Shown here: in pieces, positions 6,131 through 56,208 of the stretch
Numbering within the stretch: the first letter of the stretch is position 1
Layout: each line of letters begins with the position of its first letter
DNA from: Halorussus vallis
GTDB lineage: Archaea > Halobacteriota > Halobacteria > Halobacteriales > Haladaptataceae
Assembly (NCBI RefSeq): GCF_024138165.1
Contig: NZ_CP100001.1
Location: 434,001 to 498,000 of the forward strand
Length of the DNA stretch: 64,000 nt
Reading direction: 5' to 3'
Notes under the pieces: model-generated
The model's database searches: none
What the model was told of the DNA's origin: nothing
The model's input: the letters and a program-made list of their open reading frames with translations, nothing else
Translations under genes and position numbers: made by a program

Positions 6131-6154
6131 CGGTGGCCTCCCAACGCTGTGACG

Positions 6155-9761: not shown

Positions 9762-9822
9762 CCCCCTTCTGCGGCCTGCCCCTTTCCCGTACCTTTTAAC
9801 ACCTCCCACGGTAGCCCCACCC

Positions 9823-12253: not shown

Positions 12254-12294
12254 GCTCGCCGGGACGGCCGGCATCGCCGGCCGTCCCGGCGAGC
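12254..12294 (-). terminator. 19-bp perfect hairpin 3' of sufB
   Basis: Bases 12254-12272 pair perfectly with 12276-12294 around an ATC loop, 47-87 nt past the sufB stop. It is one of the strongest stems in the window. Placement argues for transcript 3'-end formation or protection. No clear U-tract follows, so a classical intrinsic terminator is not assured. Confidence 0.55.
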
Positions 12295-17172: not shown

Positions 17173-17202
17173 CGGGCCGGCGCGGTCGACCGCGCCGGCC
17201 CG
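17173..17202. repeat. 30-bp perfect palindrome
   Basis: Bases 17173-17187 are the exact reverse complement of 17188-17202, with no spacer. The arm includes GGCGCGGTC. It sits upstream of the membrane protein gene that reads leftward from 17128 and directly abuts the 39-bp tandem array. Confidence 0.7.
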
Positions 17203-17487: not shown

Positions 17488-17669
17488 CCCGCGACGAGGC
17501 GGTTCCCGTTTCCGGACGACTCGTCCGGCCGACACCGGTCGACGGGACGGTCGTCGACGTCGACTTCGGCTATCTGACGTCGGTCGTCTTGACCGTCGAG
17601 AAGGACGGCGAGAGGTACTACGAGACGTACGGACTCGTGTCGGTAGAGCGAGAGGCGGACGTCGGATAG
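17484..17669 (+). CDS. Small conserved-looking beta protein
   Basis: 61 residues from GTG at 17484. The pattern GRLVRPTPVDGTVVDVDFGYLTSVVLTVEKDGERYYETYGLVSV is an alternating hydrophobic strand arrangement like a small beta barrel. Acidic, with haloarchaeal codon use. The start overlaps the stop of the 13-codon leader frame by 4 bases. Function unknown. Confidence 0.6.
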   Translation: MTRDEAVPVSGRLVRPTPVDGTVVDVDFGYLTSVVLTVEKDGERYYETYGLVSVEREADVG

Positions 17670-17760
17670 CGAGCGCCGCGCCACGCGGCCGCTCGCCGAA
17701 GTCGCTCCGAGACGTTCCGGGACCGAAAACGGTTCGCCCCGGGCGACCGAAGTGTCGACG

Positions 17761-18507
17761 ATGCTTCCGGATTCGGACTCGAAACTCCGCGTAGTCCTCG
17801 GCGCGGCCGCGCTCGGGCTCGGCGGCTACGTCGTGGCAATCGTGGTCGTCTCGGTCGTCTCGCTCCTGTTGGTCGTCGCGGGCGTTCCGCTGACCGAGCG
17901 TCCGACGCTGTTGCTCGGCCTGTCGGTCGTCCTGGGTCAGGGCGTCTCGTTCGGCGGGTTCGCACTGTGGTACCTCCGCCGAACCGGTCGCGGCCTCGAC
18001 TTCGTTCGAGCGCGCGTGCCGACGCTCCGCGACGTCGGCTGGACCGTCGGCGGGTTCGTCGTGTTCTACCTCGGTCTGGTCGTCATCTCGGTGGTCCTCT
18101 CGTCGTTCGGGATTCAGTCGGCGTCCAACACCGTCGAACAGTTCGGCGAACAGGACCCGACGGTGTTCCTGCTGTTGATACCGCTGTCGTTCCTGTTCAT
18201 CGGTCCCGGCGAGGAACTGCTGTACCGCGGCGTCGTTCAGGGGCGCCTCCGCGAGCGGTTCACCCCGACCGTCGCGATTCTACTCGCGAGTTTCATCTTC
18301 GCGGTGATCCACGTCTTCTCGCTCCAGGGCGCGGGGAAACTCACCTACCTCGCCATCCTGTTCGTCCTCTCGCCGATCCTCGGGTTCGCCTACGAGCGAA
18401 CCGACAACCTCGTCGTGCCGTCGCTGATACACGGCGCGTTCAACGCCGTCCAGTTCTACGTCGCGTACCTGACCGCGACGGGCGGACTCCCGTCGGCCGG
18501 CGTCTGA
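17761..18507 (+). CDS. CPBP-family intramembrane metalloprotease
   Basis: 248 residues, seven or eight membrane helices. CPBP (CAAX protease / Abi) proteins are intramembrane metallo-endopeptidases. The conserved motifs are present: EELLYR (Glu151-Glu152, Arg156), His184 in AVIHVF and His224 in LIHGAFN. The active site should therefore be intact. Start ATG 17761; an in-frame GTG at 17752 adds three residues. The substrate is unknown. Archaeal members have been linked to protein maturation and bacteriocin immunity, but nothing nearby indicates either. Confidence 0.92.
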   Translation: MLPDSDSKLRVVLGAAALGLGGYVVAIVVVSVVSLLLVVAGVPLTERPTLLLGLSVVLGQGVSFGGFALWYLRRTGRGLDFVRARVPTLRDVGWTVGGFVVFYLGLVVISVVLSSFGIQSASNTVEQFGEQDPTVFLLLIPLSFLFIGPGEELLYRGVVQGRLRERFTPTVAILLASFIFAVIHVFSLQGAGKLTYLAILFVLSPILGFAYERTDNLVVPSLIHGAFNAVQFYVAYLTATGGLPSAGV

Positions 18508-20435: not shown

Positions 20436-20485
20436 CGCGTTCGGCCGGGCGCGGTCGCCGCGGCGACCGCGCCCGGCCGAACGCG
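20436..20485. repeat. 50-bp perfect palindrome
   Basis: Bases 20436-20460 are the exact reverse complement of 20461-20485, the longest perfect palindrome I found. It begins 16 nt after the stop of the 95-residue protein gene, and the arm includes GGCGCGGTC. It may serve as a 3' RNA hairpin or a protein site; its length and perfection exceed what termination needs. Confidence 0.75.
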
Positions 20486-24119: not shown

Positions 24120-27113
24120 ATGTCCGATAAATCTACGCCGCTCGTCTCGCCCGAAGAACAGTCTCGCGACCGCCTCCGGTTGCTCCTGACCGTCTGCTGT
24201 GCGCTCGCGATTCTGCTTGCGGCGACCCTCGTTCCCGCCGTCTCCACCGCCGACCTCGGCCGCTCGCCGCTCGGCTCTCTTGTCCCGCAACCGAGCGTCC
24301 AGCCGTTCGGCCAGTCCGGGGACGGCGGTCAGAGCGGCGGACTCGGGGATGGTGGCCGACTCGGTGCGTTGAACCCCGGCAGTCGGACCGGTGTCGGCGG
24401 GTCGCTCGCCGGCGCGAACGATTCGTCGGCCTTCCGGTCCCGGAACGCCGAAACCCACTTCACCGTCCGGAGTTCCGTCGCCTCGTACTGGCGCACCGGC
24501 GCGTATGACACGTACACCGGCGACGGATGGAAACGGACCGGCGGTCGGAAACCGTACGCGGGACCGCTGACGGACGGCGGCATCCCGGGTCGGCGGGTCC
24601 GCTACCGAGTGACGCTCGACCGCCCCGCCACCGCGCTCCCGAGCGTCTGGCGGGCCACGAGCCTCTCCCGGCCGAGTTCGGCCGACCTGTACGTCACCGA
24701 CCAGCGAGCCTTCGAGACGGACGAGTCGGTCCCGGCCGGGACGACCTACACCGGCGTCAGCCACGTCCCGCCCCGCGACCCCGCCGTTCTGCGCGCCGCG
24801 GGGCGGGACTACCCCGACCGAATCCGGTCCGAGTACACGCAACTGCCGGCGGAGACGGACCGACGCCTCGGCCGGTTCACCCGAAACCTCACCCGCGACG
24901 CGACCTCCCCGTACGAGACGGCCGTCCGGGTCGAGTCGTGGCTCGAATCGAACAAGCGCTACTCGCTGAACGTGAGCCAACCGCCGGACGGCGACGTCGC
25001 CTCCCAGTTCGTCTTCGAGATGGACGCGGGCTACTGCGAGTACTTCGCGACCGCGATGACCGCGATGCTGCGGTCGCAGGGGGTGCCCGCGCGCTACGTC
25101 GTCGGCTACTCGACCGGCCAGCGGGTCGGCGAGAACGCCTACCGCGTTCGGGGGCTGAACGCCCACGCCTGGGTCGAAGTGTACTTCCCCGACGTCGGCT
25201 GGGTCCGCTTCGACCCGACCCCCGGCGCGGAACGCCTCCGGTCCGAACGGCGAGCCTTCGAACGCCAGCGCGACCGCGGCACGTACTCGCCGACCGAGCG
25301 GGGGAGTCCGAACGAGACGTTCTCGGCGAACGGGAGCGTCGAGTCCCCTTCGGCGCCCGGAACCTCCGGAACTTCGTCCGTGTCAGGGACCCCGTCTGCG
25401 TCCGGAACGCCGTCCACCTCCGGACCCCGGCCGACCGCGAGCGGCACTTCTCGGCCCCGGGACGCGACGACATCCGCGACCGGTCCGGAGACGTCGCCCG
25501 CGACGACCGCGACGACGCTCTCGACCACGACCAGCACGCGCTCGTCGCCGTCCACTACGACCCCGAACGCGTCGCGGGACGAGACGACCGACCGGTCGAC
25601 GCCTTCCACGAGAATCGAACTGAACCGAACGCCGGTTCCCGGTGCGACGGTGACCGTCTCGGTCGTCCGGAGCGGGTCGCCGGTGACGGGCGAGACGGTC
25701 CGGTTCAACGGGCGGGCGGTGGGGACTACCGACGCGGACGGCCGAGTCGTCGCGCGCGTTCCGTACGCGCGGAACCTCACCATCACCGTGGGCGGGACCG
25801 CGACGTCGCCGACGAACGCGCGCGTCGGTCTTCCGCCGCTGGGCTCCGGCATCGTCGCGGCGGCGGCCGACCCGCCGCCGCTTCTGATCCAGGACGCGAG
25901 CGCGAACCGTTCCGCGAACGGCTCGGCGTCGTACTCGCTCGCGACGAACGTCACGCTCACCGTCTCCGGCGACGCCGTCACCGGGAACACCGTCGTCGTC
26001 ACGGCGACGATACGAGGCGTCCCCGTGCGAGACGCGCTCGTTCGACTGAACGACCGGAGGGTCGGGCGTACCGACGCCCGGGGGCGAATCCGCGTTCGGC
26101 TTCCGGAGTCGCCCGGCAACGTGTCGCTGACTGCGAGCCGCGGCCCCGCGACGGGCGAGCGGACGCTCACGCTGCCGACCCTTGCCGTCTCCGCGGAGCC
26201 GACCCTCCCGCTCGCGCTCCCCGGCGGGTCGGTCGAAGTTTCCGCCTCCTACGGCGACGACCCCGTCGCCGGCGTGCCGGTCCGGGTCGCCGGCCGACGC
26301 GTCGGGACGACGGGCGTCGACGGGACGCTCACGGCGTCGCTACCGTTCGCCAACGACGCTCGAATCGAGGTCGCGCGAGACGGCCAGACCCGACGTACGA
26401 CCGTCTCGGGCCTCCTCGTCAACCTCGGCGGCGTCCTCGTCGGTCTGGGCGTCGTCGTCGGCGGTATCGTCGTCGTCGCCCGCCGGCGCGGAATCTCGCT
26501 TCGCTCGCTCGCGGCCCGTGTCGCGAGCGTTCTCCGCCGAGCGCCGGCGCTCTTGGTCGCGGGGCTGTTCGCGGCCGTCGACCTGGTCGAGCGCGCGCTG
26601 ATACGAGCCGACCGACGGCTCAGAGCGGTGCTCGCGTCGCTCGCCGCGCTCTACTGCGGTGACCTGACGCGCGCGGAGGCGCTCGAGCGCCTCCGCGAGT
26701 GGTTCGCCTCCCGTTTCGACTGGATTCGGGCGCGACTCGCCGTGACGCGTTCGCCCGGCGCGTCGGCGGCCGCCGACGCGCCGGCCGAATCCGAGCACGT
26801 CCCCGACGAGTCGTACCTGACGGTTCGGGACGCCTGGGAGCGGTTCCTCGGTCGGACCTCGGTTCGCGACCCGTCGGCAAAGACGCCCGGCGAACTCGCC
26901 GCGCACGCCATCGAGGAGGACGGCCTGCCCCCGAAGCCGGTTCGCACGCTCCGCGACGTCTTCCGGGACGTCGAGTACGGCGCCCGCGACCCGACGGAGC
27001 GGCTTCCGTACGTCGAGCGGGCGGTCGACACGCTCGACCCCGATGGGGCGTCCGATGTCGACGGTGTCGACAGTGCCGGCGGTTCCCGGCCGGACGCCGG
27101 AGGTGACGACTAA
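24120..27113 (+). CDS. Membrane-anchored transglutaminase-like protein with DUF4129
   Basis: 997 residues. After a cytoplasmic start comes TM1 (about 22-42), then an extracellular transglutaminase-like domain with the complete triad Cys306 (AGYCEYFATAM), His349 (NAHAWVEVY) and Asp365 (RFDPTPG). A long Ser/Thr/Pro-rich linker (about 395-500, probably O-glycosylated) leads to three Ig-like repeats with GTTD.DGRV or GRTDARGRI turns. A second TM (LLVNLGGVLVGLGVVVGGIVVV) and a cytoplasmic DUF4129 domain (DGLPPKPVRTLRDVF) close the protein. First gene of a four-gene operon whose other products recur in the second cluster at 36-41 kb. Substrate unknown; cell-surface cross-linking or proteolysis is likely. 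Confidence 0.92.
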   Translation: MSDKSTPLVSPEEQSRDRLRLLLTVCCALAILLAATLVPAVSTADLGRSPLGSLVPQPSVQPFGQSGDGGQSGGLGDGGRLGALNPGSRTGVGGSLAGANDSSAFRSRNAETHFTVRSSVASYWRTGAYDTYTGDGWKRTGGRKPYAGPLTDGGIPGRRVRYRVTLDRPATALPSVWRATSLSRPSSADLYVTDQRAFETDESVPAGTTYTGVSHVPPRDPAVLRAAGRDYPDRIRSEYTQLPAETDRRLGRFTRNLTRDATSPYETAVRVESWLESNKRYSLNVSQPPDGDVASQFVFEMDAGYCEYFATAMTAMLRSQGVPARYVVGYSTGQRVGENAYRVRGLNAHAWVEVYFPDVGWVRFDPTPGAERLRSERRAFERQRDRGTYSPTERGSPNETFSANGSVESPSAPGTSGTSSVSGTPSASGTPSTSGPRPTASGTSRPRDATTSATGPETSPATTATTLSTTTSTRSSPSTTTPNASRDETTDRSTPSTRIELNRTPVPGATVTVSVVRSGSPVTGETVRFNGRAVGTTDADGRVVARVPYARNLTITVGGTATSPTNARVGLPPLGSGIVAAAADPPPLLIQDASANRSANGSASYSLATNVTLTVSGDAVTGNTVVVTATIRGVPVRDALVRLNDRRVGRTDARGRIRVRLPESPGNVSLTASRGPATGERTLTLPTLAVSAEPTLPLALPGGSVEVSASYGDDPVAGVPVRVAGRRVGTTGVDGTLTASLPFANDARIEVARDGQTRRTTVSGLLVNLGGVLVGLGVVVGGIVVVARRRGISLRSLAARVASVLRRAPALLVAGLFAAVDLVERALIRADRRLRAVLASLAALYCGDLTRAEALERLREWFASRFDWIRARLAVTRSPGASAAADAPAESEHVPDESYLTVRDAWERFLGRTSVRDPSAKTPGELAAHAIEEDGLPPKPVRTLRDVFRDVEYGARDPTERLPYVERAVDTLDPDGASDVDGVDSAGGSRPDAGGDD

Positions 27114-37581: not shown

Positions 37582-38990
37582 CGTGACCTCCTTGCCGCCG
37601 CGGCCGCGTCGACGGCCGCCCGGATGGGTTCGTCGGGCGACCAGTCTATCACCTCGACGCCGCCGCCCCGGACCTCGGCGAGGCGGTCGGCGCGCTCGAT
37701 TCCCTCGACGGTGCCGCCGGGCGTTCCCGTGCCGGTGACGTCCGGGCTCACGACCGTGACCGGGTGGCCGTAGGCCGCGAACCGCCGGACGAGTTCGACC
37801 GCCATCTCGTCGAGCATCGGCGAGAGGAACAGCACCTGGGCCGCGTCGGGCAGGCGCTTGCGGAGCGTGTCGAAGCGCGACTCGGTCGCGCGGTTGCGCC
37901 GGCGGTCGCTGAACAGGTTCGTCGCGCCCTCGGGCGCGCCGGGGGCCGCTTCGAGCGCGGCCCTGATGCGGGCGGCCTGTTCGTCGCCGCCGGCGGGTGC
38001 GAGGTACTCCTCGGGCGGGCCGAATATCGAGAGGCCGACCCGGTTGTTCCGCCCCAGCAGCGCGTCGGCGAGGCGCTCGGCGGCGTATCCGCCGAGTTCC
38101 ACCGCGTCGGGTTCACCCTCGCGCCGGGCGACGTGGGAGGGCGCGCGCACGTCCACGACGACGACCACCGTCGCGGCCCGAGTTTCGCGGAATTCGACGG
38201 TCGTGAGTTCGCGGGTCCGGGCGTAGCGCTTCCAGTCGACCCGCGAGAGCGGGTCGCCTGGCTGGTACCCCCGAGTGGCGTAGAACTCCACGCCCTCGCC
38301 GCCCGAGTCGGTCGTGACGTGGCCCGGGTACGCTGAGGTCCGGGCGGGCAGGGGGACCTCGTCGGCGTGCGTCTCGCAGGTCACGGTCGCGTCGAGGGAA
38401 ACCGCCTCGCGGCGCTCGACCGACCCGCTGACGTTGCGCGCTATCAGCGTCGTCTCGCCGAACTCGTGGGTTCCCCGGCGCGCCCGCAGGGTGTAGGTGT
38501 ACGTCTCGCTCTCGCCGGGTCGGAGTCCCGTACAGTGGCGGGGCGACCCCGAGGCGACCGCGAGACGCTCGGGGACGCCGTCGACCACCCGGAGGTCGGC
38601 GAGCGACCGGTCGCCCTCGTTGGTCACGGTCACCGCCACCTCGAACTCGTCGCTCGGCGCGGGCGAGCGGTCGGCGACGGCGCGCTCGACCGACACGTCG
38701 AGGTCCGGCGGTCGCGCCCCGTAACGGTAGGCGGCGTAGCAGAACCCGACGACCGCCGCGAGGAACACCGCGGCGTTCTCCAGCAGGATGCCCGCGGCGC
38801 CACAGAGCAGCGCGACGGTGAGGCCGGCGTCCCAGCGCGGTCCCGCGTCGAGGACGTCCGAGAGCGAGTCGTCGGTCCGGCGGCGGCGGTCGGCCGCACC
38901 CCTGCTCGACGCGGTTTCGCGGAAGACGACGAGGTAGAGCGCCGCGACGAGCAGGCCGCCGAGGAGGGCGGCGGTCGTCTGTTCGTTCAT
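37578..38990 (-). CDS. DUF58 protein (second copy)
   Basis: 470 residues. Two TM helices (ALLGGLLVAALYLVVF, AAVFLAAVVGFCYAA), a DUF11-like beta domain, the DUF58 signature YQPGDPLSRVDWKRYARTREL, then a VWA-like domain (ATVVVVVDVRAPSH; VLFLSPMLDEMAVELVRRF). It shares the framework of the first copy but lacks its acidic insert. The start overlaps the upstream gene by ATGA. As with the first copy, no MoxR ATPase gene is beside it. Confidence 0.9.
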   Translation of the reverse strand: MNEQTTAALLGGLLVAALYLVVFRETASSRGAADRRRRTDDSLSDVLDAGPRWDAGLTVALLCGAAGILLENAAVFLAAVVGFCYAAYRYGARPPDLDVSVERAVADRSPAPSDEFEVAVTVTNEGDRSLADLRVVDGVPERLAVASGSPRHCTGLRPGESETYTYTLRARRGTHEFGETTLIARNVSGSVERREAVSLDATVTCETHADEVPLPARTSAYPGHVTTDSGGEGVEFYATRGYQPGDPLSRVDWKRYARTRELTTVEFRETRAATVVVVVDVRAPSHVARREGEPDAVELGGYAAERLADALLGRNNRVGLSIFGPPEEYLAPAGGDEQAARIRAALEAAPGAPEGATNLFSDRRRNRATESRFDTLRKRLPDAAQVLFLSPMLDEMAVELVRRFAAYGHPVTVVSPDVTGTGTPGGTVEGIERADRLAEVRGGGVEVIDWSPDEPIRAAVDAAAAARRSR

Positions 38991-39931
38991 CGGTGGCCCT
39001 CCAGTTCGTCGGCCGTGTAGTGCGGGACGGCGGTCGGACTGCCGTCCGCTTCGGCGGGGACGGTTTTCGCGCGCTCTGCCTCGGCATCTCCCTCCGAGTC
39101 GGTATCGGCCGCCGCGTCGGCGTCGGCCGCTGCACCGACGTCGGTTTCGGCGTCAGCGTCGGTTTCGACGCCGGCGCGGCGGTCCTCGCGCGCTCGCTGT
39201 CCGGACGTCTCGCCCTTCGCAATCGTCGGGTCGGACTCGTCGGCGCCGTCCAGGCCGGCCGCGTCGGCGAGCGAGCGCGGCGAGTCGCCGCGCTCGCTCG
39301 CGCCCGCCGTCGCGGGGGTCGGGTCGGTCGACGTCAGCACCTCGATTTCGGCGACCGCGCGCCGCGCCCGGCGCTCGTAGGCCTCGCCGCTGGCCCAGTC
39401 GCGGACCCGGGTTCGAAGCGGGAGGAGCGACGGACTCCTCGCGAGGAACGCGGCCGCCCGGGGGTCGTCGGTCCACGACCCGTCGTCGATTCTCCCGCGG
39501 GCGACCTGACGGCTGCAGTTCTCGGCGTCGGCCAGGACCGTCACCGCGGTTCGACGAATCCGTTTCCAGGCGCGCTGGCGCACGCCCTGCTCGTCGTCCT
39601 CGCCGTCGAGGACCGCGTCCACCGCGGTGCCCGTCGTCCGCTGTTCGTCGTAGTGGGCGCGCTCGGGGGTCGTCGCGGGCGTCCACAGTCCCGCGTCCTC
39701 GGAGCCCTCGCCCACGGTCCGCTTGAGCGACCAGAGGCCGAGTAGTCCCGCGAGGCCGCCGAACAGCAGGACCGTCCCCGGTCCCGCGAAACCGGCCGCC
39801 GGTCGGAGGACGGCCGCGACGGTCGGCGAGAGCGCGACGCCCAGCGCGAGGACGAGCGCGGTCGATCCGACGAGCGCGAGATTCCGGTCGGTCAGCAGGC
39901 CGCGGACCGTCTCGAGGAGGACGCGAATCAT
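38987..39931 (-). CDS. DUF7269-like protein (second copy)
   Basis: 314 residues. TM helices near 20-38 and 42-62, then the family core CSRQVARGRIDDGSWTDDPRAAAFLAR, matching the shorter first copy. The C-terminal 110 residues are an acidic low-complexity extension (DADAETDVGAAADADAAADT) missing from the paralogue, and within it lies a 16-bp perfect DNA hairpin (39267-39301). Overlaps its neighbours on both sides by 4 bases. Function unknown. Confidence 0.82.
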   Translation of the reverse strand: MIRVLLETVRGLLTDRNLALVGSTALVLALGVALSPTVAAVLRPAAGFAGPGTVLLFGGLAGLLGLWSLKRTVGEGSEDAGLWTPATTPERAHYDEQRTTGTAVDAVLDGEDDEQGVRQRAWKRIRRTAVTVLADAENCSRQVARGRIDDGSWTDDPRAAAFLARSPSLLPLRTRVRDWASGEAYERRARRAVAEIEVLTSTDPTPATAGASERGDSPRSLADAAGLDGADESDPTIAKGETSGQRAREDRRAGVETDADAETDVGAAADADAAADTDSEGDAEAERAKTVPAEADGSPTAVPHYTADELEGHR

Positions 39932-42261: not shown

Positions 42262-42297
42262 GGGGCCGGTTCGGGACGGCCGTCCCGAACCGGCCCC
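42262..42297. repeat. 36-bp perfect palindrome
   Basis: Bases 42262-42279 are the exact reverse complement of 42280-42297. It lies 105 bases past the M48 protease stop and 53 bases before the kinase ATG. The context fits either a 3' hairpin of the protease message or a regulatory site of the kinase. Confidence 0.7.
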
Positions 42298-42350: not shown

Positions 42351-45197
42351 ATGGACGCTGGCCGAATCTCGCCCGACGACGTGCTCGCCGCCTGCGGCGG
42401 GACGCCGACGGCCCACGAACCCGTGACGGCGAGCGAAGTCGCGGCGGAGCTCGACTGCAGTCGGCGAACCGCCTATAACAAGCTCGCCGAACTGGCCGAC
42501 CGGGACGAGGTTCGGTCCAAGAAGGTCGGCGCGCGGAGTCGCGTGTGGTGGCTCCCCGCCGACCGCGCGTCTCCCGAGGACCGAACTCCAGTCGCCGACG
42601 CGTTAGCGGACGAGGTGGCGCTCGACGGCGCGTTCGCCGACGAGGCGGCGCGCGAGCAGTTCGAAACCGAACTGGCGGAGGTGTTCGGACGTATCTCGGA
42701 CGCGTTCTACGCGCTCGACGACGAGTGGCGGTTCACGCACGTCAACGAGCGCGCCGAGGAACTCATCGACTACCGCGGTGAGGGCCTCGTCGGCGAGAAC
42801 CTCTGGGAGACCTTCGAGTGGGCGACCGACTCGAAACTGGGCGAGGAGTACCGCGAAGCGATGGAAACCGGCGAGCCGACCGCCTTCGAGTTCTACTACC
42901 CCGAACCGCTCGACGCGTGGTACGAGGTCCACGCCTACCCCTCCGAGTCGGGGCTGTCGGTCTACTTCCAGGACGTGACCGAGCGCCGCGACCGCGAGCG
43001 CGAACTCGTCGAATCGGAGCGCCGGTACCGGACGCTGGTCGAACACTTCCCGAACGGCGCCGTCGCGCTGGTCGACGAGGACCTCCGGTACCGGACCGTC
43101 GGCGGTAATCCCCTCGGGAGCACCACCGATGAACCGGAGGGGCGTCGGCTCACGGACGCCCTGCCGTCGGAACTGGCGGACGAACTCGCCCCGCGCTACG
43201 AGGCCGCGTTCGAAGGCGAATCGAGCACGTTCGAAATCGAGTACGAGGGGTCGTCCTACCGAATCTGGGTTCTGCCGGTCCGGGACGAGGACGGCGACAT
43301 CTTCGCCGCGTTCGGCATGTCCCAGGACGTCACCGAGCAGAAGGAGCGCGAGCGGTACCTCGACGACGCCAAGTCTCAACTCGAGGCGGCGACCGAGGCC
43401 GGCGCCGTCGGAACCTGGGAGTGGAACATCCCCGACGACCGGTTCGTCACCGGCGCGTCGTTCGCCAAGACGTTCGGCGTCGACCCCGAGGCGGCCCGGG
43501 AGGGCGTGGAACTCGACCGAATCGTCTCGGCCATCCACGAGGCCGACCGCGAGCGAGTCGAACGCGAGATAGAGGCGGCAATCGAAACCTGCGGCGAGTA
43601 CGAGGAGGAGTACCGCGTCTGGAACGCCGACGGCGAACTGCGGTGGGTCGTCGCCCGCGGCCACGTCGAGAGCGACGAGGCGGGCGACCCCGTCAACTTC
43701 CCCGGCGCGCTCGCCGACATCACGGAGCGAAAGCGGGCCGAGCAGGAGCTTCAGGAACACCGGAGACAGCTCGAAACGCTGTTCGAGGTGCTCCCGGTCG
43801 GCGTGGTGGTCACGGACGCCGACGGCACCGTCATCGAGGCGAACGAGGCCGCCAAGGACGTCTGGGACGTCGACACGTTCGACGCGACGGGCGTCGCCGA
43901 CTACGAGCGGTACCGCGGGTGGTGGGCCGACACCGGCGAGGCCGTCGCCCCCGACGAGTGGACGCTGGCCCGCGTTCTCCGGGGCGAGGAGGTGACCGAC
44001 CCCGACGTCTTCGAGATCGAAACCGCCGACGGCGAGCGCAGGGTAATCATGGTCCACGGGATGCCGATTTACGGCGAGTCCGGTGAGGTCACCCGCGGCG
44101 TCGCCACGCTGACCGACATCACCGAGCGCCGGGAGTACCAGCGCCAACTGGAGGCGTCCGAACGGCGCTACCGGACGCTGGCAGAGCACTTCCCGAACGG
44201 TGCGGTCGGCGTCTACGACCCCGACCTCCGGTTCACGCTGACCCGGGGCGCGGTCCTGGGCGAGAAACTCCCCGGTCGGGACCGACTCGAAGACAGTCGG
44301 CTCCGCGAGGTGTTCCCCGAGGGACCGGTCGACGACATCGAACCGCTGTTCCGGGCGGCGGTCGAGGACGGCGAGACGGCGAGCATCGACACGGCGTTCG
44401 CCGGCCGGCACTGGCGCGTCTGGGCGACGCCGCTGCGCGACGCCGACGGCGACGTCTTCGCCGGACTGAGTTTCACCCAGGACGTCACCCGACACGTCGA
44501 GCGCGAGCGCAAACTCGAACGCACGGTCGAGAAACTCGAAGAGTCCAACGAGCGCCTCGAATCGTTCGCGAGCATGCTCGCCCACGAACTCCGCAACCCC
44601 GTCGCCATCGGCCAGATATACGGGCGCCAACTCCCGGCCGAGGTGGCCCCCGACGCGGTCGAGTACGTCACCGAGTCGTTCGACCGCATCGAGGACATGA
44701 TCGACGTGATGCTGGTGTTGACCCGCGGCCGCGACGTGGTCAGCGAGCGAGCGCCGGTCGTCCTCGCCGACGCGGCCCGCGAAGCCTGGGCCGACGTCGA
44801 AGCCCCGGATGCGACCGTCTCCATCGCGGTCGACCGGACGATTCGGGCCGACGGGACGTACGTCCGCCACCTGTTCCGAAACCTGCTGGAGAACGCGGTG
44901 GAACACGGCGGCCCCGGGGTCGACGTCACGGTCGGCGACCTGCCTGACGGCTTCTACGTCGCCGACGACGGTCCCGGCATCCCTGCGGACGAGCGCGAAA
45001 CCGTCTTCGAGGCGGGCTACACGACCGCGGCGGGGAACGGCGGCACCGGCCTGGGACTCGCGTTCATCGAGAAGTTGGCCGGGGTGTACGGGTGGGACTG
45101 TCGGGTGACCGAGAGCGAGTCGGGCGGCGCGCGCTTCGAGTTCACGAACGTCGACTGCGACGTCACCGGCGAGCGGTCTGGTCGCGCCGACGAGTAG
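42351..45197 (+). CDS. HTH-PAS5-histidine kinase
   Basis: 948 residues, cytoplasmic, with no TM. An N-terminal winged helix (TASEVAAELDCSRRTAYNKL) precedes about five PAS domains (105-215, 220-335, 345-465, 470-600, 605-715), most closed by D(V/I)TER-type motifs. HisKA has the phospho-acceptor His745 in LAHELRNP, and HATPase_c shows NLLENAVEHGG and DDGPGIP. The N-terminal HTH suggests that it may also bind DNA. Signals (redox, light, oxygen) are typical of haloarchaeal PAS kinases but cannot be fixed. No response regulator is adjacent. Confidence 0.93.
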   Translation: MDAGRISPDDVLAACGGTPTAHEPVTASEVAAELDCSRRTAYNKLAELADRDEVRSKKVGARSRVWWLPADRASPEDRTPVADALADEVALDGAFADEAAREQFETELAEVFGRISDAFYALDDEWRFTHVNERAEELIDYRGEGLVGENLWETFEWATDSKLGEEYREAMETGEPTAFEFYYPEPLDAWYEVHAYPSESGLSVYFQDVTERRDRERELVESERRYRTLVEHFPNGAVALVDEDLRYRTVGGNPLGSTTDEPEGRRLTDALPSELADELAPRYEAAFEGESSTFEIEYEGSSYRIWVLPVRDEDGDIFAAFGMSQDVTEQKERERYLDDAKSQLEAATEAGAVGTWEWNIPDDRFVTGASFAKTFGVDPEAAREGVELDRIVSAIHEADRERVEREIEAAIETCGEYEEEYRVWNADGELRWVVARGHVESDEAGDPVNFPGALADITERKRAEQELQEHRRQLETLFEVLPVGVVVTDADGTVIEANEAAKDVWDVDTFDATGVADYERYRGWWADTGEAVAPDEWTLARVLRGEEVTDPDVFEIETADGERRVIMVHGMPIYGESGEVTRGVATLTDITERREYQRQLEASERRYRTLAEHFPNGAVGVYDPDLRFTLTRGAVLGEKLPGRDRLEDSRLREVFPEGPVDDIEPLFRAAVEDGETASIDTAFAGRHWRVWATPLRDADGDVFAGLSFTQDVTRHVERERKLERTVEKLEESNERLESFASMLAHELRNPVAIGQIYGRQLPAEVAPDAVEYVTESFDRIEDMIDVMLVLTRGRDVVSERAPVVLADAAREAWADVEAPDATVSIAVDRTIRADGTYVRHLFRNLLENAVEHGGPGVDVTVGDLPDGFYVADDGPGIPADERETVFEAGYTTAAGNGGTGLGLAFIEKLAGVYGWDCRVTESESGGARFEFTNVDCDVTGERSGRADE

Positions 45198-46287: not shown

Positions 46288-46325
46288 TCGCCGCGAGCGA
46301 CGGCGAACACCGTCGCTCGCGGCGA
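46288..46325 (+). terminator. 16-bp hairpin directly after the two-TM protein
   Basis: Bases 46288-46303 pair perfectly with 46310-46325 around a CGAACA loop, starting at the base after the TAA stop. Likely 3'-end element of that transcript, insulating it from the catabolic island that follows. Confidence 0.55.
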
Positions 46326-49075: not shown

Positions 49076-52000
49076 CTACCGGTCGAGCGCTTCGGCGACC
49101 TTCTCGACGGGGTGGGGCGGTTCGTCGTCGGTCCCCTCCCAGTCGCCGAGTTGGGTCCGGCAGGACGCGCCGGGCGCGACCACCGTCTCGCCGTCGCTCT
49201 CCTCGACCTGCTCGAAGAGGATATCGCCGATGGCTCGGCTCATCGAGTAGTGTTCGGCCTCGTAGCCGAAGCTTCCCGCCATCCCGCAACAGCCCGAATC
49301 GAGCCTGTCGACCTCGTAGCCGACGGCCCGCAGGACGACGGCGGCGTGGCCGTCCTTCTTGGTGGCCTTCTGGTGGCAGTGGCCGTGGTAGGTCAGCGAC
49401 TCCGCGGGCGCGTCGCCCGCGGAGTCGTCCGAATCGGACGGCGCGAGCGCGTCGGTCAGGTCGAAGGCGTCGAGGTACTCCATCACGCCGTAGGTGTTGG
49501 CGGCGACCCGTTCGGTTTCGCGCCCGAGGGTCGCCCGCGGGCGACCCTCGGGCGCCGAGTTCGGCGCTCCGCCCTCGCCCGCCGAGTCCGACGCTTCCAG
49601 TCCGGCCTCGGGGTCGGCGGTCCGGGGTTCGGTGTACTGCTCGCCCGAGCGACTGGCCTCCGGAGTCTCGTCGTCGGCCAGGAGGTCGAGGTAGTCCGAC
49701 TGGACCATCACGGCGTCGGAGGGTTCGACCACGACCACGTCCCAGCCGTCGCGGACCTTCGGCGCGAGCGCCCGCACGTTCGTCTCGGCGCACGCCCGCG
49801 AGACGTCGAGAAAGCCCTTCGAGTGGGCCGACCGGCCCGTGGCGGTCACGTCGGCCGGGATGCGGACCCGCACCCCCGCGGCTTCGAGGACCCGGACCGC
49901 GGCCTTGCCGGCCTCGGGGTGGTTGTAGTTGGTGTAGGTGTCGGGGAGCAACGCGACCTTCCGGGTCGCTTCGTCGGCGGGGACCTGCGGGCCGCCGCGG
50001 GCCTCGAACCAGTCGACGAAGCTCTCGCGGTGGAAGTTGGGGAGACTGCGCTCGCGGGCGATGCCCAGCGTCTTCTCCATGACGGTCCGGGCGCCGGGCA
50101 CCTTCTCCGCCAAGTTCGACACCGGCGCGAGCGCCGACCCCGCGGCGTTGAGACGGTCGACGTGCGCGAACACGTGGTCGCGGAGGCTGGCGCCGTGCTC
50201 CTCGTGGTGGGCGTGCTCGACCTCGGCCTTCAGTTTCGCCATGTCGACCTCCGAGGGACAGTCGCGGGCACAGCCCTTGCAGCCGATGCAGAGGTCCATC
50301 ACCTCGGCCATGAACTCGGTGTCGAGTTGCTCGTCGTCGGGCAGGTCGCCCGACATCGCCTGTCGAAGCGCGTTCGCCCGGCCGCGGGTCGCGGTGATCT
50401 CCTCGTCGGCGGCGCGGTAGGTCGGACACATCACTCCGCCGGTGGTGTCCTGCTGGCCGCGACAGCCCCCGCAGCCGTGACAGAGTTCGACCATGCCCTG
50501 GAAGCCGTTCTCGTTCTCCCAGTTCAGCGCGGGGTCGAGGCCCGCGTCGAACTCGTAGTCGGGGTCGAACCGGAGGTTCTCGGTCATGTCGACGTCGCCG
50601 CAGACCTGCCCCGGATTCAGCAGCCAGTCGGGGTCGAACGCGGTCTTGAGGTCGCGGAACACCTGCCAGACGTGCTCGCCGTACAGTTTGCGGTTCCACT
50701 GGGTGCGCGCCCGGCCGTCGCCGTGTTCGCCAGACACCGACCCGCCGTACTCGACCACCAGGTCGGTCACCGCGTCCGAGATGGATTCCATCTGGTTGAC
50801 GCCCGCGGGGCTCTTGGTGTCGACCAGCGGGCGCATGTGCATACAGCCGGGCCCGGCGTGGGCGTAGAAGCTGGCGAAGGTGTCGTTGTCCTCTAACACC
50901 CGCTGGAAGTCGGCGACGTAGTCGGCGAGGTTCTCGGTCGGCACCGCGGTGTCCTCGATGAACGAGATGTGCTTGGCGTCAGAGGTCCGCGACAGCAGGA
51001 TGGGCATCCCGGACTTCCGGAGCTTCCAGAGCTTCGCACGGTCGGCGTCGTCGTAGGCCTCCAGCGCGTCGAACGCGCGGCGGGGCTGGGCGTCCGATTC
51101 GTCGCCTCCCTCGGCGTCCGGCGCGGCCGCGCCGGCTTCGCCGGTCGCCTCGCCCACCCGGTCTTCGAGCAGAGCCGCGACCTGCTCGCGGCCGTGGGCG
51201 TCGTCCTCGGCGTAGAACTCCACCAGTAGGGCGGTTTCGGTGCCCTCGGGGAGCATCGCGACCACGTCGGCGAACTCCTCGGTATCGCGCGCGAGGTCGA
51301 GCAGGACGTCGTCGATGGCCTCGACCGCGGCGGGGTCGTGACGAGTGACGATGGCGTCGACGTCGGCCATCGCGTCGAGCAGGTCGCGGTAGGTCAACAG
51401 CGCGACCGACTTGGTTTCGGGGACGGGTTCGAGCGAGACGGTCGCCTCGGTGACGATGCCGAGCGTCCCCTCGCTCCCGGCGAACAGGCGCGCGAGGTTG
51501 ACGGTCCCCGAGCCGCTCGCGCCCTCCGCGGCGCCCTGCGCCTCGCGGGCCTCGGTTACGAGCCTGTCGAGGTTGTATCCCGAGACGTTGCGCTTGAGCT
51601 GCGGGTAGACCTCCTCGACGGCGTCGGCTTCCTCCTCGACGATTCGGCGAACCTCGGCGTAGATTCGCGCTTCGAGGTCGCCGTCGGGGTCGGCGCCGTC
51701 CCGGAGTTCGTCGAGCGTCACCGCGCCGAAGGTCGTCACGGTGCCGTCGGCGAGGACGACTTCGACCTCCTCGACGTAGGCGTCGGTCTTGCCGTACTTC
51801 AGCGAGTGAGCGCCCGTCGAGTTGTTCCCGATGGCCCCGCCGATGGTACTTCGGTTGCCGGCGGCGGGGTCGGGCGCGAACTTCAGGTCGTGGGGCGCGA
51901 GTTCGGCGTTGAGGTCGGCGAGGACCGCGCCGGCCTGCGCGCGCGCCCGGCGGTCCTCGGGGTCGACCTCCAGCAGGTCGCCCATGTGTGCCGTGAAGTC

Positions 52001-52384
52001 GAGGACGACTGCCTCGTTGACGGCCTGGCCGGCGAGGCTGGTGCCGCCGCCCCGCGGTAGCACCGGAATCCCGCGGTCGGCGCAGTAGGCCATCACCGCC
52101 GCCACGTCGTCGGTCGATTCCGGCATCACGACGCCGACCGGCGTGACCTCGTAGGCGCTGGCGTCGGTCGCGTACAGCTGTCTGCTGTACTCGTCGAACC
52201 GGACTTCGCCGTCGACGCGCTCGACGAGGTCGGCGACGAGGTCCGTTCGGACCTCGTCGCCGCCGACGTAGTCGTAGTCGGCGCGGGGGTCGGCGGCCGG
52301 GTCACGGGTCGATTCGTCGGGGTTTCGGGACGCGCCGTCGACGGCGTCGCGTGACGCGTCGTCGGTGGTGTCGTTCGTGGCCAT
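49076..52384 (-). CDS. FAD-linked 2-hydroxyacid oxidase fused to Fe-S/CCG module
   Basis: 1102 residues. An N-terminal FAD-binding PCMH domain (PRGGGTSLAGQAVN, GNNSTGAHSLKYGKT) and the FAD-linked oxidase C-terminal domain are fused to a GlpC/HdrD-like part with two iron-sulphur sites (CHGCGGCRGQQ..CP; CIGCKGCARDCP) and CCG signals (YHGHCHQKAT, GCCGMAGSFGY). It oxidises a D-2-hydroxyacid (lactate, glycolate or 2-hydroxyglutarate) and passes electrons to quinone or another carrier. Three low-complexity inserts contain perfect DNA palindromes (49397-49427, 49520-49555, 51118-51135). Start ATG 52384, 6 bases after the dehydrogenase stop. Confidence 0.92.
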   Translation of the reverse strand: MATNDTTDDASRDAVDGASRNPDESTRDPAADPRADYDYVGGDEVRTDLVADLVERVDGEVRFDEYSRQLYATDASAYEVTPVGVVMPESTDDVAAVMAYCADRGIPVLPRGGGTSLAGQAVNEAVVLDFTAHMGDLLEVDPEDRRARAQAGAVLADLNAELAPHDLKFAPDPAAGNRSTIGGAIGNNSTGAHSLKYGKTDAYVEEVEVVLADGTVTTFGAVTLDELRDGADPDGDLEARIYAEVRRIVEEEADAVEEVYPQLKRNVSGYNLDRLVTEAREAQGAAEGASGSGTVNLARLFAGSEGTLGIVTEATVSLEPVPETKSVALLTYRDLLDAMADVDAIVTRHDPAAVEAIDDVLLDLARDTEEFADVVAMLPEGTETALLVEFYAEDDAHGREQVAALLEDRVGEATGEAGAAAPDAEGGDESDAQPRRAFDALEAYDDADRAKLWKLRKSGMPILLSRTSDAKHISFIEDTAVPTENLADYVADFQRVLEDNDTFASFYAHAGPGCMHMRPLVDTKSPAGVNQMESISDAVTDLVVEYGGSVSGEHGDGRARTQWNRKLYGEHVWQVFRDLKTAFDPDWLLNPGQVCGDVDMTENLRFDPDYEFDAGLDPALNWENENGFQGMVELCHGCGGCRGQQDTTGGVMCPTYRAADEEITATRGRANALRQAMSGDLPDDEQLDTEFMAEVMDLCIGCKGCARDCPSEVDMAKLKAEVEHAHHEEHGASLRDHVFAHVDRLNAAGSALAPVSNLAEKVPGARTVMEKTLGIARERSLPNFHRESFVDWFEARGGPQVPADEATRKVALLPDTYTNYNHPEAGKAAVRVLEAAGVRVRIPADVTATGRSAHSKGFLDVSRACAETNVRALAPKVRDGWDVVVVEPSDAVMVQSDYLDLLADDETPEASRSGEQYTEPRTADPEAGLEASDSAGEGGAPNSAPEGRPRATLGRETERVAANTYGVMEYLDAFDLTDALAPSDSDDSAGDAPAESLTYHGHCHQKATKKDGHAAVVLRAVGYEVDRLDSGCCGMAGSFGYEAEHYSMSRAIGDILFEQVEESDGETVVAPGASCRTQLGDWEGTDDEPPHPVEKVAEALDR

Positions 52385-52390
52385 CGTCGT

Positions 52391-53377
52391 TCAGTGCGAC
52401 TCCGACGTCGACGGTTCCGGCGCGAGCACCTCGTTCTCCAGTCGCTCGCCGGTGTCGAGGCGTTCGACGTTGGTCGCCACGATGTCGGCGAGTCGCTCCC
52501 AGTGCTTGGGCGTGTGACCGCCGGTGTGGGGCGTGATGAGGCAGTTTTCGAGGTTCCAGAGCGGGTGGTCCTCCGGGAGCGGTTCGGGGTCGGTCACGTC
52601 CAGGGCCGCCCCGCGAATCTTGTTCGAGCGCAGCGCCGCGACCAGCGCGTCGGTGTCGACGATGGGGCCGCGGGCGGTGTTGACCACGACCGCCTCCGGC
52701 GGCAGGGTCTTGAACTCCTCTTCGCCGACGAGGCCGCGGGTCATGTCGTTGAGAGGGCAGGCGACGACGACGTACTCGCTCCGGGAGAAGGCGTCGTGGA
52801 TGGCCTCCTCCTCGAAGCCGACCACCTCGTCGGTCGGCCCGCCCTTCTCGGGGGTGTAGCGCACGCCTATGGTGTCGACGCCGAAGCCCTGCAGACGCTC
52901 GACGACCTCTTGGCCGATGGAGCCGAGGCCGACGACGGTGACGGTCTTGTCGGTGAGTTCGCCCGACTGGAAGTGTCGCCACTCGCGGTTCTGCTTGCGC
53001 CGCCACCCCTCGTGGAGTCGCCGGGAGAACGTCAGGATGTTGCCGACGGCCTGCTCGGCGATGCCCGGTGCGTGGATACCGCCCGCGTTCGTGACGCCGA
53101 CGCCGCGCTCGGCCAGCGCGTCCATCGGGACGTGGTCGGTGCCCGCGAACGTGCAGGCGAACAGTTCGAGGCGGTCGGCCCGGTCGAGGAGGTCGGCGTC
53201 GACGGTGATGCCGGTGACGATTCGCGCGCCGGCGACGAGTTCGCGCTCCTGGCCCGGCGTCCGGGCGAGCGCGACCGACCGGTCGGGCAGGCGCTCGCGC
53301 AACTCCTCGGCGTACGATTCCATCGACAGCCCTTCGGTCCCCTCGCGGAGGACGACGATGTCCGAATGGTCGCTCAT
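52391..53377 (-). CDS. D-2-hydroxyacid dehydrogenase
   Basis: 328 residues. NAD-linked reduction or oxidation of 2-keto/2-hydroxy acids. Rossmann GLGSIGQEV, substrate Arg in NTARGPIVD, catalytic His in TPHTGGHTPKH. The first gene of a two-gene operon with the FAD-linked oxidase. Together they could shuttle a 2-oxoacid/2-hydroxyacid pair and feed electrons to the chain. Start ATG 53377, TATA-like GCTTAACGG about 25-30 bases upstream. Substrate unknown. Confidence 0.92.
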   Translation of the reverse strand: MSDHSDIVVLREGTEGLSMESYAEELRERLPDRSVALARTPGQERELVAGARIVTGITVDADLLDRADRLELFACTFAGTDHVPMDALAERGVGVTNAGGIHAPGIAEQAVGNILTFSRRLHEGWRRKQNREWRHFQSGELTDKTVTVVGLGSIGQEVVERLQGFGVDTIGVRYTPEKGGPTDEVVGFEEEAIHDAFSRSEYVVVACPLNDMTRGLVGEEEFKTLPPEAVVVNTARGPIVDTDALVAALRSNKIRGAALDVTDPEPLPEDHPLWNLENCLITPHTGGHTPKHWERLADIVATNVERLDTGERLENEVLAPEPSTSESH

Positions 53378-53383
53378 AGTAAC

Positions 53384-53476
53384 TTCTGTGTGACTGCGGT
53401 CCGTTAAGCTACGTATTGCGACAATCTAACTTAGTCCTTTTGTGTAGTCGCTATCAACGAAAACCGTTTACTAATA
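53384..53476. promoter_or_regulatory. Divergent promoter region with two island motifs
   Basis: TTCTGTGTGA (53384-53393) lies next to the dehydrogenase start, and TTTTGTGTA (53438-53446) upstream of a TTTACTAATAAG box (53467-53476) for the M20 gene. Both fit the motif shared across the island, the first with one change. Confidence 0.5.
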
Positions 53477-53503
53477 AGTGGCTGGAGCGCGTTAGGGTCG
53501 CTC

Positions 53504-54940
53504 ATGCCGGAACCGATACGCCAGAGACTCTCAGACGTGCGACGCGAGTTCCACCGCTACCCCGAACCCGCCTGGCGCGAGTTCTACACCACCCACCGAC
53601 TGGTCGAGGAACTGCGGGCCATCGGCGTGGACGAACTCGCCGTCGGCACCGAGGTCTACGACCCCGACGACCGGATGGCCGTCCCGAAGGCCGAGAGCGT
53701 AGACGAGTGGCGCGAACGGGCGCGCGACCGCGGCGCCGACCCCGACCTGCTGGAGAAGATGGACGGTGGGAACACGGGCGTCGTCGCCGTGCTCGACCGC
53801 ACTGACGCCGCCGACGCGGACGCCGGGGGTGCAGACCCCGACGGCGGGACCGACGGTCCCGCCGTCGGTCTGCGGGTCGACATCGACGGTCTGTTCATCG
53901 AGGAGTCGGAGGACGACGACCACGCGCCCACGGCCGAGGGCTTCCGGTCGGAGTCCGGCGAGACGATGCACGCCTGCGGCCACGACGCCCACATGACCTG
54001 GGGGCTCGCGACGCTCGAAGCGATCAAGGACAGCAACTTCTCGGGTCGGCTCGTCGTCTTCTTCCAGCCGGCCGAGGAGACCTCCGGCGGCGGCCACCCG
54101 ATGGCCGAGAGCCGGTACGCCGACGACCTCGACTACCTCTTCGCGGTCCACGTCGGCCTCGACCACCCGACCGGCGAGGTGGTTGCGGGCATCGAGAAAC
54201 CGCTGGCGATGTGCCACGTCGACGCCACCATCCGGGGGACCTCCTCGCACGCGGGCAAGGCGCCCCAGGACGGGAACAACGCGATGCAGGCGCTCGGGAC
54301 GCTCATCGAGAACGCCTACGGCATCCCCCGCCACGAGGACGGGATGACCCGGGTCAACGTCGGAAAGGCCGAGGCCGGCACTTCGAGCAACATCATCGCC
54401 GAGCACGCGGACGTGGTGGCGGAGGCCCGCGGCGAGACGACCGAACTCAAGGAGTACGTGAAGGACAGGCTCCTGCGTGTGTTCGAGAACGCCGCGGAGA
54501 TGCACGGCTGTACCGCCGACGTCGACGTGGTGAGCGAGTCGCCCCGCGCCGACAGCGACCCCGAACTCGTCGAGGTCGTCGCCGACGCGGCCCGCGGCGT
54601 CTCGGGCGTCGAGACGGTGGTGCCGACCGCCGACTTCGGCGCGAGCGAGGACGCCACCTTCCTGATGGAGCGCGTCCAGGAGGAGGGTGGGCTGGCGTCC
54701 TACCTCATCGTCGGCACCGACCACCCGACGAGCCACCACACGCCGACGTTCGACGTCGACGAGCGGAGCCTCGAAATCGGCGTCGAGGTGCTGACCGACT
54801 CGATTCTACGGGTGGCCGAGGACGGCCCCGTCGCGCGGGACGACGCGGTCAGGTCGTCCCGCGCGACCGACGGCGGCGGGTCGGCCGCCCGAGACGACCC
54901 GACCGCGGAGACGGACGCCGGCGCGGGAAGCGAGCCATGA
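53504..54940 (+). CDS. M20-family amidohydrolase (AbgA-like; possible deacetylase DoeB2-like)
   Basis: 478 residues. Metal-dependent amidase with the site MHACGHDAHM (Cys158, His160, Asp161) and FFQPAEET. N-terminal architecture (EVYDPDDRMAVPKAESVDEWRERA) is close to AbgA. In ectoine catabolism the acetyl group of N-acetyl-diaminobutyrate must be removed. The usual DoeB is of another fold, but M20 deacetylases (DoeB2) are known to me as alternatives. The role is therefore plausible, not proven. Two low-complexity segments contain perfect hairpins (53838-53868 and 54830-54867). Its TGA overlaps the next ATG. Confidence 0.85.
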   Translation: MPEPIRQRLSDVRREFHRYPEPAWREFYTTHRLVEELRAIGVDELAVGTEVYDPDDRMAVPKAESVDEWRERARDRGADPDLLEKMDGGNTGVVAVLDRTDAADADAGGADPDGGTDGPAVGLRVDIDGLFIEESEDDDHAPTAEGFRSESGETMHACGHDAHMTWGLATLEAIKDSNFSGRLVVFFQPAEETSGGGHPMAESRYADDLDYLFAVHVGLDHPTGEVVAGIEKPLAMCHVDATIRGTSSHAGKAPQDGNNAMQALGTLIENAYGIPRHEDGMTRVNVGKAEAGTSSNIIAEHADVVAEARGETTELKEYVKDRLLRVFENAAEMHGCTADVDVVSESPRADSDPELVEVVADAARGVSGVETVVPTADFGASEDATFLMERVQEEGGLASYLIVGTDHPTSHHTPTFDVDERSLEIGVEVLTDSILRVAEDGPVARDDAVRSSRATDGGGSAARDDPTAETDAGAGSEP

Positions 54941-56208
54941 GCTCCGAATCGGGGGAAGCCGACGCCGTCCCGAGCGCCGACGAGGTGGTCGCGCTCGCGG
55001 ACGTGGAGGACGCCCGCGAGCGCCTCGCCGACGTGGTCCACCGGACGCCGCTCGACCGCTCGTCCACCTTCGCCGAACTGAGCGGCGCGGCCGCGGTCGG
55101 CCTCAAACTGGAGAACGTCCAGCGGACGGGGTCGTTCAAGATTCGCGGCGCGTACAACAAGATGGCCCAGCTTTCGGACGCCGAGCGCGAGCGCGGGGTC
55201 GTCGCGTCCAGCGCCGGCAACCACGCCCAGGGGGTCGCGCTCGCGGGCGACCTGCTGGACATCGAGACCACCATCGTGGTGCCGGAGGTCACCCCTGCGG
55301 CGAAGATCGAGGCCACCCGGGGGTACAGTGCGGAGGTCGTCGTCGAGGGCGACATCTACGAGAAATCTTACCAGTACGCGCTCGAACTCGCCGACGAGAC
55401 GGGTCTGACGTTCGTCCACCCCTTCGACGACGAGGCCATCGTCGCGGGCCAGGGGACGGTCGGCCTCGAACTCCGCGAACAGCTGCCCGACCTCGACACC
55501 GTGCTGGTCGCCATCGGCGGCGGCGGCCTCATCTCGGGTGTCGCCACCGCGCTGAAGGCCCACGACCCGGACGTCCGGGTCGTGGGCGTCCAGCCAGAGG
55601 GCGCGGCCCACGCCAAACCGTCGCTCGACCGCGACGAGATCCACGAACTGCCGGGCGTCGACACGGTGGCGGAGGGCATCGCCGACACCCGTCTACTCCC
55701 GAAGACGTTCGCGGTCGTCCGCGAGCGCGTCGACGACGCCGTCGCGGTGAGCGACCGCGACATCGCCGCGGCCGTCGCGCTCCTCGCGGAACGCGCCAAG
55801 ACCGTCGCCGAGTCGGCCGGCGCGGCCCCGCTCGCCGCGCTCCTCTCGGGCGAGGTGGACGTCGAAGGAGAGCGCGTCGGCGTCGTCGTCTCGGGAGGAA
55901 ACGTCGACCTCACCGAACACGGCGAACTCGCGCGCGCCGGCCTCGCGGAACTCGGCCGGTACGCGACGGTTCGGCTGGCGGTTGAGGGCTGGCCGGGGGA
56001 CCTCGCGGCGGTCACCGAGACGCTCGAAGACGAGGGCGCGCAGTTGGACGCGGTGGAACGCGCCCGCCGGACCGCAGCCGACGACCCCAATCGCACGCCC
56101 GTGACCGCCAGTCTGGCGGGGAGCGGGCCGGACCACCTCGCCGGGGCGATAGCCGCCCTGGACGACCTCGACGGCGTGGCGGTCGTCGACGACGACCTCG
56201 CGCGGTAA
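54937..56208 (+). CDS. Threonine dehydratase-like PLP enzyme (EutB-like)
   Basis: 423 residues from ATG at 54937, overlapping the M20 stop. PLP-dependent dehydratase; Schiff-base Lys68 in GSFKIRGAYNK, phosphate loop GGGGLISG, SAGNHAQGV. A C-terminal ACT-like half follows (VRLAVEGWPGDLAAVTETL). In hydroxyectoine catabolism a threonine-dehydratase-like EutB acts on the hydroxylated intermediate. Here the coupled position next to the M20 enzyme and in the doeA island suggests that role. An ordinary catabolic threonine deaminase (IlvA/TdcB) is the alternative. Confidence 0.88.
   Translation: MSSESGEADAVPSADEVVALADVEDARERLADVVHRTPLDRSSTFAELSGAAAVGLKLENVQRTGSFKIRGAYNKMAQLSDAERERGVVASSAGNHAQGVALAGDLLDIETTIVVPEVTPAAKIEATRGYSAEVVVEGDIYEKSYQYALELADETGLTFVHPFDDEAIVAGQGTVGLELREQLPDLDTVLVAIGGGGLISGVATALKAHDPDVRVVGVQPEGAAHAKPSLDRDEIHELPGVDTVAEGIADTRLLPKTFAVVRERVDDAVAVSDRDIAAAVALLAERAKTVAESAGAAPLAALLSGEVDVEGERVGVVVSGGNVDLTEHGELARAGLAELGRYATVRLAVEGWPGDLAAVTETLEDEGAQLDAVERARRTAADDPNRTPVTASLAGSGPDHLAGAIAALDDLDGVAVVDDDLAR

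Follow-up and report, generated by a model that had tools for sequence, protein, structure and literature searches.

Short perfect palindromes in Halorussus vallis as probable footprints of inverted-copy DNA synthesis

Perfect inverted repeats with short arms are strongly over-represented in a 64-kb stretch of the Halorussus vallis genome (G000:C2:434001-498000, hereafter the window, G000 being this genome). The window has a GC content of 68.7% and lies on a 557.5-kb contig of the 5.05-Mb genome; it holds 16 such repeats at the standard count threshold (arms of at least 13 bp, loops of at most 8 nt), versus 0.1 expected from third-order Markov shuffles. From the sequence comparisons described below, these palindromes appear to have been made locally and not carried in. 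They are probably the footprints of short-range template switching (inverted-copy DNA synthesis) over a stereotyped tract of about 15 nt, with a tendency that is heritable, much raised in one Halorussus lineage and raised separately in one other genome. A first-pass annotation of the window had listed seven palindromes, described them as lying inside coding sequences and always in low-complexity inserts, and likened them to the elements that insert in frame into Rickettsia genes.

Abundance, size rules and distribution

Ten of the 16 window sites lie within predicted genes and six are intergenic (genes were called with a home-made caller trained on in-frame hexamers, so that gene ends are approximate). 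The longest is the 50-bp perfect palindrome at 20436-20485. When arms of at least 9 bp are admitted, the window has 35 sites versus 11.7 expected, the long-armed sites supplying most of the excess. Of the seven palindromes listed by the annotation, five are true at the places given, with the arms and loops of Table 1: 49520-49555 (18 of 18 pairs), 49397-49427, 53838-53868, 54830-54867 and 39267-39301, whose arms are one base pair longer than the 16 reported. The sixth (51118-51135) is indeed palindromic over 18 bp, though its 9-bp arms are near chance expectation, and the seventh, in an alcohol dehydrogenase gene (2957-2982), is not palindromic, with only 8 of 13 positions pairing. The list was also incomplete, the strongest overlooked sites being those at 20436-20485, 12254-12294, 42262-42297, 46288-46325, 17173-17202, 26755-26784, 52231-52262 and 55558-55587. 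Nor are the palindromes confined to low-complexity inserts of genes, given the six intergenic ones and the two at 52231-52262 and 55558-55587, which sit in conserved protein cores without any insert relative to orthologues.

The same holds at a larger scale. In 764 kb of the H. vallis genome, 165 perfect inverted repeats were counted (21.6 per 100 kb), distributed over both the chromosome and the megaplasmid, from which about 1,100 are estimated by extrapolation for the whole genome. Genes contain 89 of them (13.7 per 100 kb) and the remaining 76 lie outside (67.8 per 100 kb), a roughly five-fold higher density that purifying selection explains. Intergenic palindromes are distributed according to gap length, apart from a slight surplus in convergent gaps (16 vs 11 expected) and a deficit in divergent ones. 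In the coding DNA of the first 364 kb, 42 were observed, while 20 synonymous-codon shuffles, made within each gene and preserving both protein and codon usage, gave a mean of 1.3 and a maximum of 3. Codon bias, for which the annotation had proposed a simulation, is therefore excluded as the source of the symmetry.

The repeats obey a size rule. Among sites with loops of 0-1 nt, those with arms of 7-10 bp occur at expectation (238 vs 239, 85 vs 76.5, 31 vs 28, and 4 vs 6.5), and a hump follows at arms of 13-19 bp, where zero are expected; 820 kb of low-rate Halorussus DNA contain none in this loop class with arms from 13 bp up. With arms fixed at 16 bp, 35 perfect sites were found in H. vallis versus 0.1 expected, the excess waning by three mismatches, and 0 perfect sites in the 820 kb of low-rate genomes. 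Loops are mostly of 0-4 nt, in keeping with the short distance between source and target expected of template switching, and few exceed 8 nt. A loop of 0 is commonest (52 sites with arms of at least 14 bp, followed by 26, 26 and 16 for loops of 1, 2 and 3 nt). In another Halorussus genome, G013, the arms are equally long, but loops of 1-3 nt are preferred.

The rates differ widely within the genus. At the standard threshold they reach 25.8 per 100 kb in G013, 20.3 in H. vallis in this comparison, 18.5 in G001 and 11.4 in G003; they are lower in G006 (7.8), G009 (2.6) and G004 (3.6), where they rest on 4, 3 and 2 sites, respectively, and lie between 0 and 1.8 in other Halorussus. The raised genomes G000, G001, G006, G009 and G013 are set apart from the others by a well-supported split, both in a Rad50 tree, which contains one unreliable long row (G017), and in a joint FEN1, PolY and Rad50 tree, whose alignment includes incorrect FEN1 frames for G005 and G009. 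Support for this split is 100/99 in one tree and, for the complementary group of 13, 100 in another. G003 is raised but lies outside this five-genome clade, and its sister G014 has no such repeat in 111 kb. Other haloarchaeal species have 0-3 repeats (arms of at least 12 bp) per locus of about 23 kb. This count leaves out L085, a metagenome contig whose apparent richness in palindromes is due to an (AT)n run; this long run (L085:6819-6856) stands within a haloarchaeal contig of 68% GC (QS_4_69_34).

Local origin of the arms

Where coding palindromes can be aligned with orthologues, they consist of an ancestral arm and its reverse complement. In the FAD oxidase gene, one arm of 49397-49427 encodes DAPAES, which orthologues keep as DAPxES; the second arm (DDSAG) is new, an inverted copy that goes with a net gain of 30 nt, in frame, relative to several orthologues. 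Similarly, 53838-53868 in the M20 peptidase gene combines a conserved GPAVG arm with a new PDGGT arm and a net gain of 48 nt relative to most orthologues, and a 46-bp palindrome in a threonine-synthase-like gene goes with a gain of about 10 residues over its homologues. In-frame inserts of +30, +48 and +63 nt were seen among the alignable cases, and every unambiguous net insert has a length divisible by 3. Inserts of the kind that the annotation had proposed to check against orthologues exist in some cases, but many alignable palindromes come without one.

Indeed, overwriting in place outnumbers insertion among the alignable coding cases, as is expected if conserved regions reject inserts. At the centre of 55558-55587, 15 of 15 positions pair in H. 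vallis, versus 6-11 of 15 in the other 23 orthologues, and no base was gained. In G013, a site at locus L118 with a 20-bp arm pairs at 20 of 20 positions, versus 4-13 of 20 around the same centre in 88 other distinct sequences, and the RACEGEV of its nearest homologue has become TEVCGEV without indel. Each of these two clustered multinucleotide changes can be explained by one inverted copy. The repeat at 52231-52262 is perfect in both H. vallis and G001, with one T-A pair in the former being C-G in the latter; both arms have therefore changed together, although both are protein-coding. Most of the orthologous sites inspected in relatives lack the palindrome. A search for near-identical paralogues of which only one carries a palindrome gave no recent pair, the single good pair being a repeated RNA-like structure.

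As a separate observation, an FAD-oxidase peptide, LDAAR(S/E)RAASN, lies on a perfect inverted repeat at a homologous place in G001, G003 and G013, in different paralogue groups (L017:12432-12461, L117:3860-3889 and L118:1644-1673). It marks either a hotspot at which such repeats recur or a dyad of great age.

Template switching and its alternatives

Template switching has been documented both to make and to correct inverted repeats (PMC8794818, PMC8604942, PMC7202029), and is known to create and maintain hairpins (PMC8794818) and to alter yeast proteins (PMC8604942). In Halorussus, a nascent strand would quit its template, copy about 15 nt of neighbouring complementary sequence and then return, leaving a perfect inverted repeat built from local sequence. 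The return point would decide whether the second arm is overwritten in place, a weak existing dyad being perfected, or added as an insertion, and within genes only tolerable in-frame results would survive. Most loops are of 0-2 nt, too short for a hairpin primer; the many loops of zero length in particular speak against self-priming, for which a loop of a few nucleotides is required, and point to a switch onto the opposite strand or to the opening of hairpin ends. The lack of short arms puts the usual length of the copied tract near 15 nt. A polymerase would presumably make the copy, switching mostly to the opposite strand and not on a self-folded hairpin, and the rate of these events would be raised by a heritable alteration of replication or repair. 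It is also conceivable, though less likely than not, that a clade-specific enzyme or an altered replication or repair factor actively writes such fixed-length reverse-complement copies (about 15 nt) beside their source, acting as a natural genome-wide mutator that makes palindromes and changes proteins in single steps.

Several observations weigh against template switching as outlined here. Arms peak sharply at 13-19 bp, and those of 7-10 bp are not in excess, so that an extra size rule is needed; ordinary correction of quasipalindromes does not predict a tract of about 15 nt, and this is the main unexplained feature. As a conjecture, the upper limit on arm length could come from cleavage of longer hairpins by Mre11-Rad50. 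Moreover, the comparisons are all between species, and the low rate of G009 together with the isolated position of G003 implies a history of more than one simple gain. Finally, no causal gene emerged among Mre11-Rad50, ExoVII, FEN1, PolY, RNase HII and Hef.

The commonest loop being 0 is what the opening of blunt hairpins predicts, and an improbable alternative is accordingly one of hairpin-end repair, in which hairpin-closed ends or folded flaps would be opened off-centre and rejoined, as for the P nucleotides of V(D)J recombination, possibly with trimming by Mre11-Rad50 to stems shorter than about 20 bp. The sharp upper size limit could reflect such cleavage, and the Mre11 and Rad50 genes look intact in H. 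vallis. However, neither the loops of 1-4 nt, found at about half of the sites, nor in-place overwriting without indel is easily produced in this way. The arrival of some palindromes with in-frame inserts missing in orthologues recalls instead a mobile family of the Rickettsia palindromic element type, or of the REP/MITE type. Rickettsia palindromic elements form a recognisable repeated sequence family. The Halorussus palindromes resemble them as in-frame palindromic gene inserts, and their species specificity at the compared sites bears out this part of the annotation's analogy, but they have no common sequence and often no insert. Only 98 of 13,530 palindrome pairs share a local match of at least 16 bp, which GC-rich codons readily give; there is no target-site duplication, and flanking direct repeats are at chance level. 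One arm is the conserved sequence of the host gene, and the whole palindrome is not an insert absent from orthologues. Rickettsia elements themselves lose repeat identity over time (PMC6649704). An inserting element is thus very unlikely, and this part of the analogy fails.

Selected functional hairpins, such as terminators or RNA or DNA structural signals, would fit the five-fold intergenic density, the slight over-representation in convergent gaps and the defined stem and loop size. Yet 89 of the 165 palindromes (54%) are within genes, and a T-rich flank accompanies 1 of 165, unlike intrinsic terminators, which lie downstream of genes with a T-tract. Loop 0 is commonest here, whereas bacterial terminator-type repeats favour 4 nt (PMC13155455); given also the absence from most orthologous sites and the lack of any Rfam match in the window, selection for such hairpins is an altogether doubtful explanation. 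As for base composition, codon bias, or sequencing and assembly error, short chance dyads are indeed commoner in GC-rich genomes, but the Markov and synonymous-codon nulls are too low by a factor of at least 30 and Halorussus genomes of similar GC have none. Reading frames also remain open, with the clear net inserts in multiples of 3, and the repeats are present in several assemblies, which leaves artefact a negligible probability.

Candidate genes for the inherited change were compared by presence and reading frame only. Rad50, FEN1, RNase HII and Hef occur in all genus genomes searched, and PolY in all but the incomplete G016. Loss of Mre11-Rad50 was rejected as the cause, both genes being present and apparently intact in H. 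vallis and Rad50 occurring throughout the genus (most Rad50 genes escaped the Pfam zinc-hook model when it was used alone). Loss of the yeast relatives of FEN1 and RNase HII raises such events (PMC5677150, PMC3820800), but both genes are kept throughout the genus genomes searched and were rejected as well. The presence of ExoVII does not track the trait, and neither does that of PolY or Hef/ERCC4. The loss of known suppressor genes, which is expected of a known mutator though unneeded for the footprint, was thus not found for ExoVII, FEN1 or RNase HII.

Two further observations concern these gene families. A second, short ERCC4-type nuclease gene (about 250 amino acids; G000:C1:1644977-1645348) adjoins RNase HII and is patchy in the genus: it is present in G000, G002, G004, G007, G011, G012, G014, G016 and G017 and absent from the other raised genomes G001, G003, G006, G009 and G013, as well as from some low-rate genomes. 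In addition to the standard Rad50, a second Rad50-like ATPase, divergent and bearing a zinc hook, is encoded at L179:214-3018 (G013:C3) and is also found in G004 and G007, where the matches carry one internal TAA.

Related systems and features of the window

Perfect palindromes destabilise DNA and are as a rule rare in archaea. Among 118,019 genomes surveyed for perfect inverted repeats, those of archaea had the lowest density, and the main text of that survey makes no mention of haloarchaea (PMC13155455); as the annotation had supposed, no earlier report of such palindromes in haloarchaea turned up in the literature searched. The quasipalindrome mutations caused by template switching in E. 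coli and yeast (PMC7202029, PMC8604942) are alike in copying a local reverse complement and perfecting inverted repeats, in their in-place multinucleotide coding changes and in their short spacers. They have been described chiefly in reporters, at single hotspots or in 39 yeast genes, whereas the Halorussus repeats number about a thousand in one genome (by extrapolation), are restricted to a clade and have arms of 13-19 bp with no excess of shorter ones. Template-switch hairpins in RNA genes likewise gain a perfect stem in a single event and show covarying pairs without selection on two mutations (PMC8794818); those stems are in RNA genes, and the Halorussus ones in protein-coding and intergenic archaeal DNA. 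The nearest parallel is that of nematomorph mitochondria, with many perfect palindromes in protein-coding genes that are dynamic between species and possibly maintained by conversion (PMC6649704). Those repeats are mitochondrial, reach 284 bp and have both arms in conserved protein, while the Halorussus ones are found in a cellular archaeal genome, have short arms, are also intergenic and can be contrasted with low-rate relatives.

A lineage with palindromes on the order of a thousand beside near-zero sister lineages offers a natural contrast for mapping the cause of template switching. It would also show proteins gaining short in-frame segments, or several substitutions, by a single event, and provide a ready explanation for some of the acidic or alanine-rich inserts of haloarchaeal proteins.

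Table 1. Perfect inverted repeats of the window and the genes holding several of them (window coordinates)
Feature	Position	Strand
13-bp arms, 2-nt loop; intergenic	1076-1103	
Palindrome, 14-bp arms; near 3' end of gene 6149-6604 (+)	6550-6577	
19-bp arms, 3-nt loop; intergenic, downstream of SufB-like gene	12254-12294	
Palindrome, 15-bp arms; intergenic	17173-17202	
50-bp palindrome, 25-bp arms; intergenic	20436-20485	
Palindrome, 13-bp arms; within transglutaminase-like gene 24180-27113	26672-26697	
Palindrome, 15-bp arms; within transglutaminase-like gene 24180-27113	26755-26784	
17-bp arms, 1-nt loop; DUF7269 gene 38987-39931, variable C-terminal part	39267-39301	
36-bp palindrome; intergenic, upstream of PAS/kinase-like gene 42351-45197	42262-42297	
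16-bp arms, 6-nt loop; intergenic	46288-46325	
FAD-binding oxidase/Fe-S protein gene (FAD_binding_4, FAD-oxidase_C, CCG); holds three palindromes	49076-52384	-
14-bp arms, 3-nt loop; FAD-oxidase gene	49397-49427	
36-bp palindrome; FAD-oxidase gene, within segment absent from most orthologues	49520-49555	
15-bp arms, 2-nt loop; FAD-oxidase gene, conserved N-terminal region, no indel	52231-52262	
Peptidase M20 gene; holds two palindromes	53504-54940	+
15-bp arms, 1-nt loop; M20 gene	53838-53868	
15-bp arms, 8-nt loop; C-terminal extension of M20	54830-54867	
30-bp palindrome; conserved core of PALP (threonine dehydratase-like) enzyme, no indel	55558-55587	

Two of the 165 H. vallis palindromes belong to a hairpin-rich intergenic repeat around ACTGAAAGGGGCCGGTCGC and GCGACCGCGAGCGGGCGGGGCTTTC, which has at least six copies and no Rfam match near gathering score. 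Copies lie at L325:15850-16010 and L340:17924-18083, in L174 near 9570-9825, in L175 near 6520-6785 and 13035-13270, and in L177 near 17610-17900. Its appearance is that of a structured RNA or of a repeat family.

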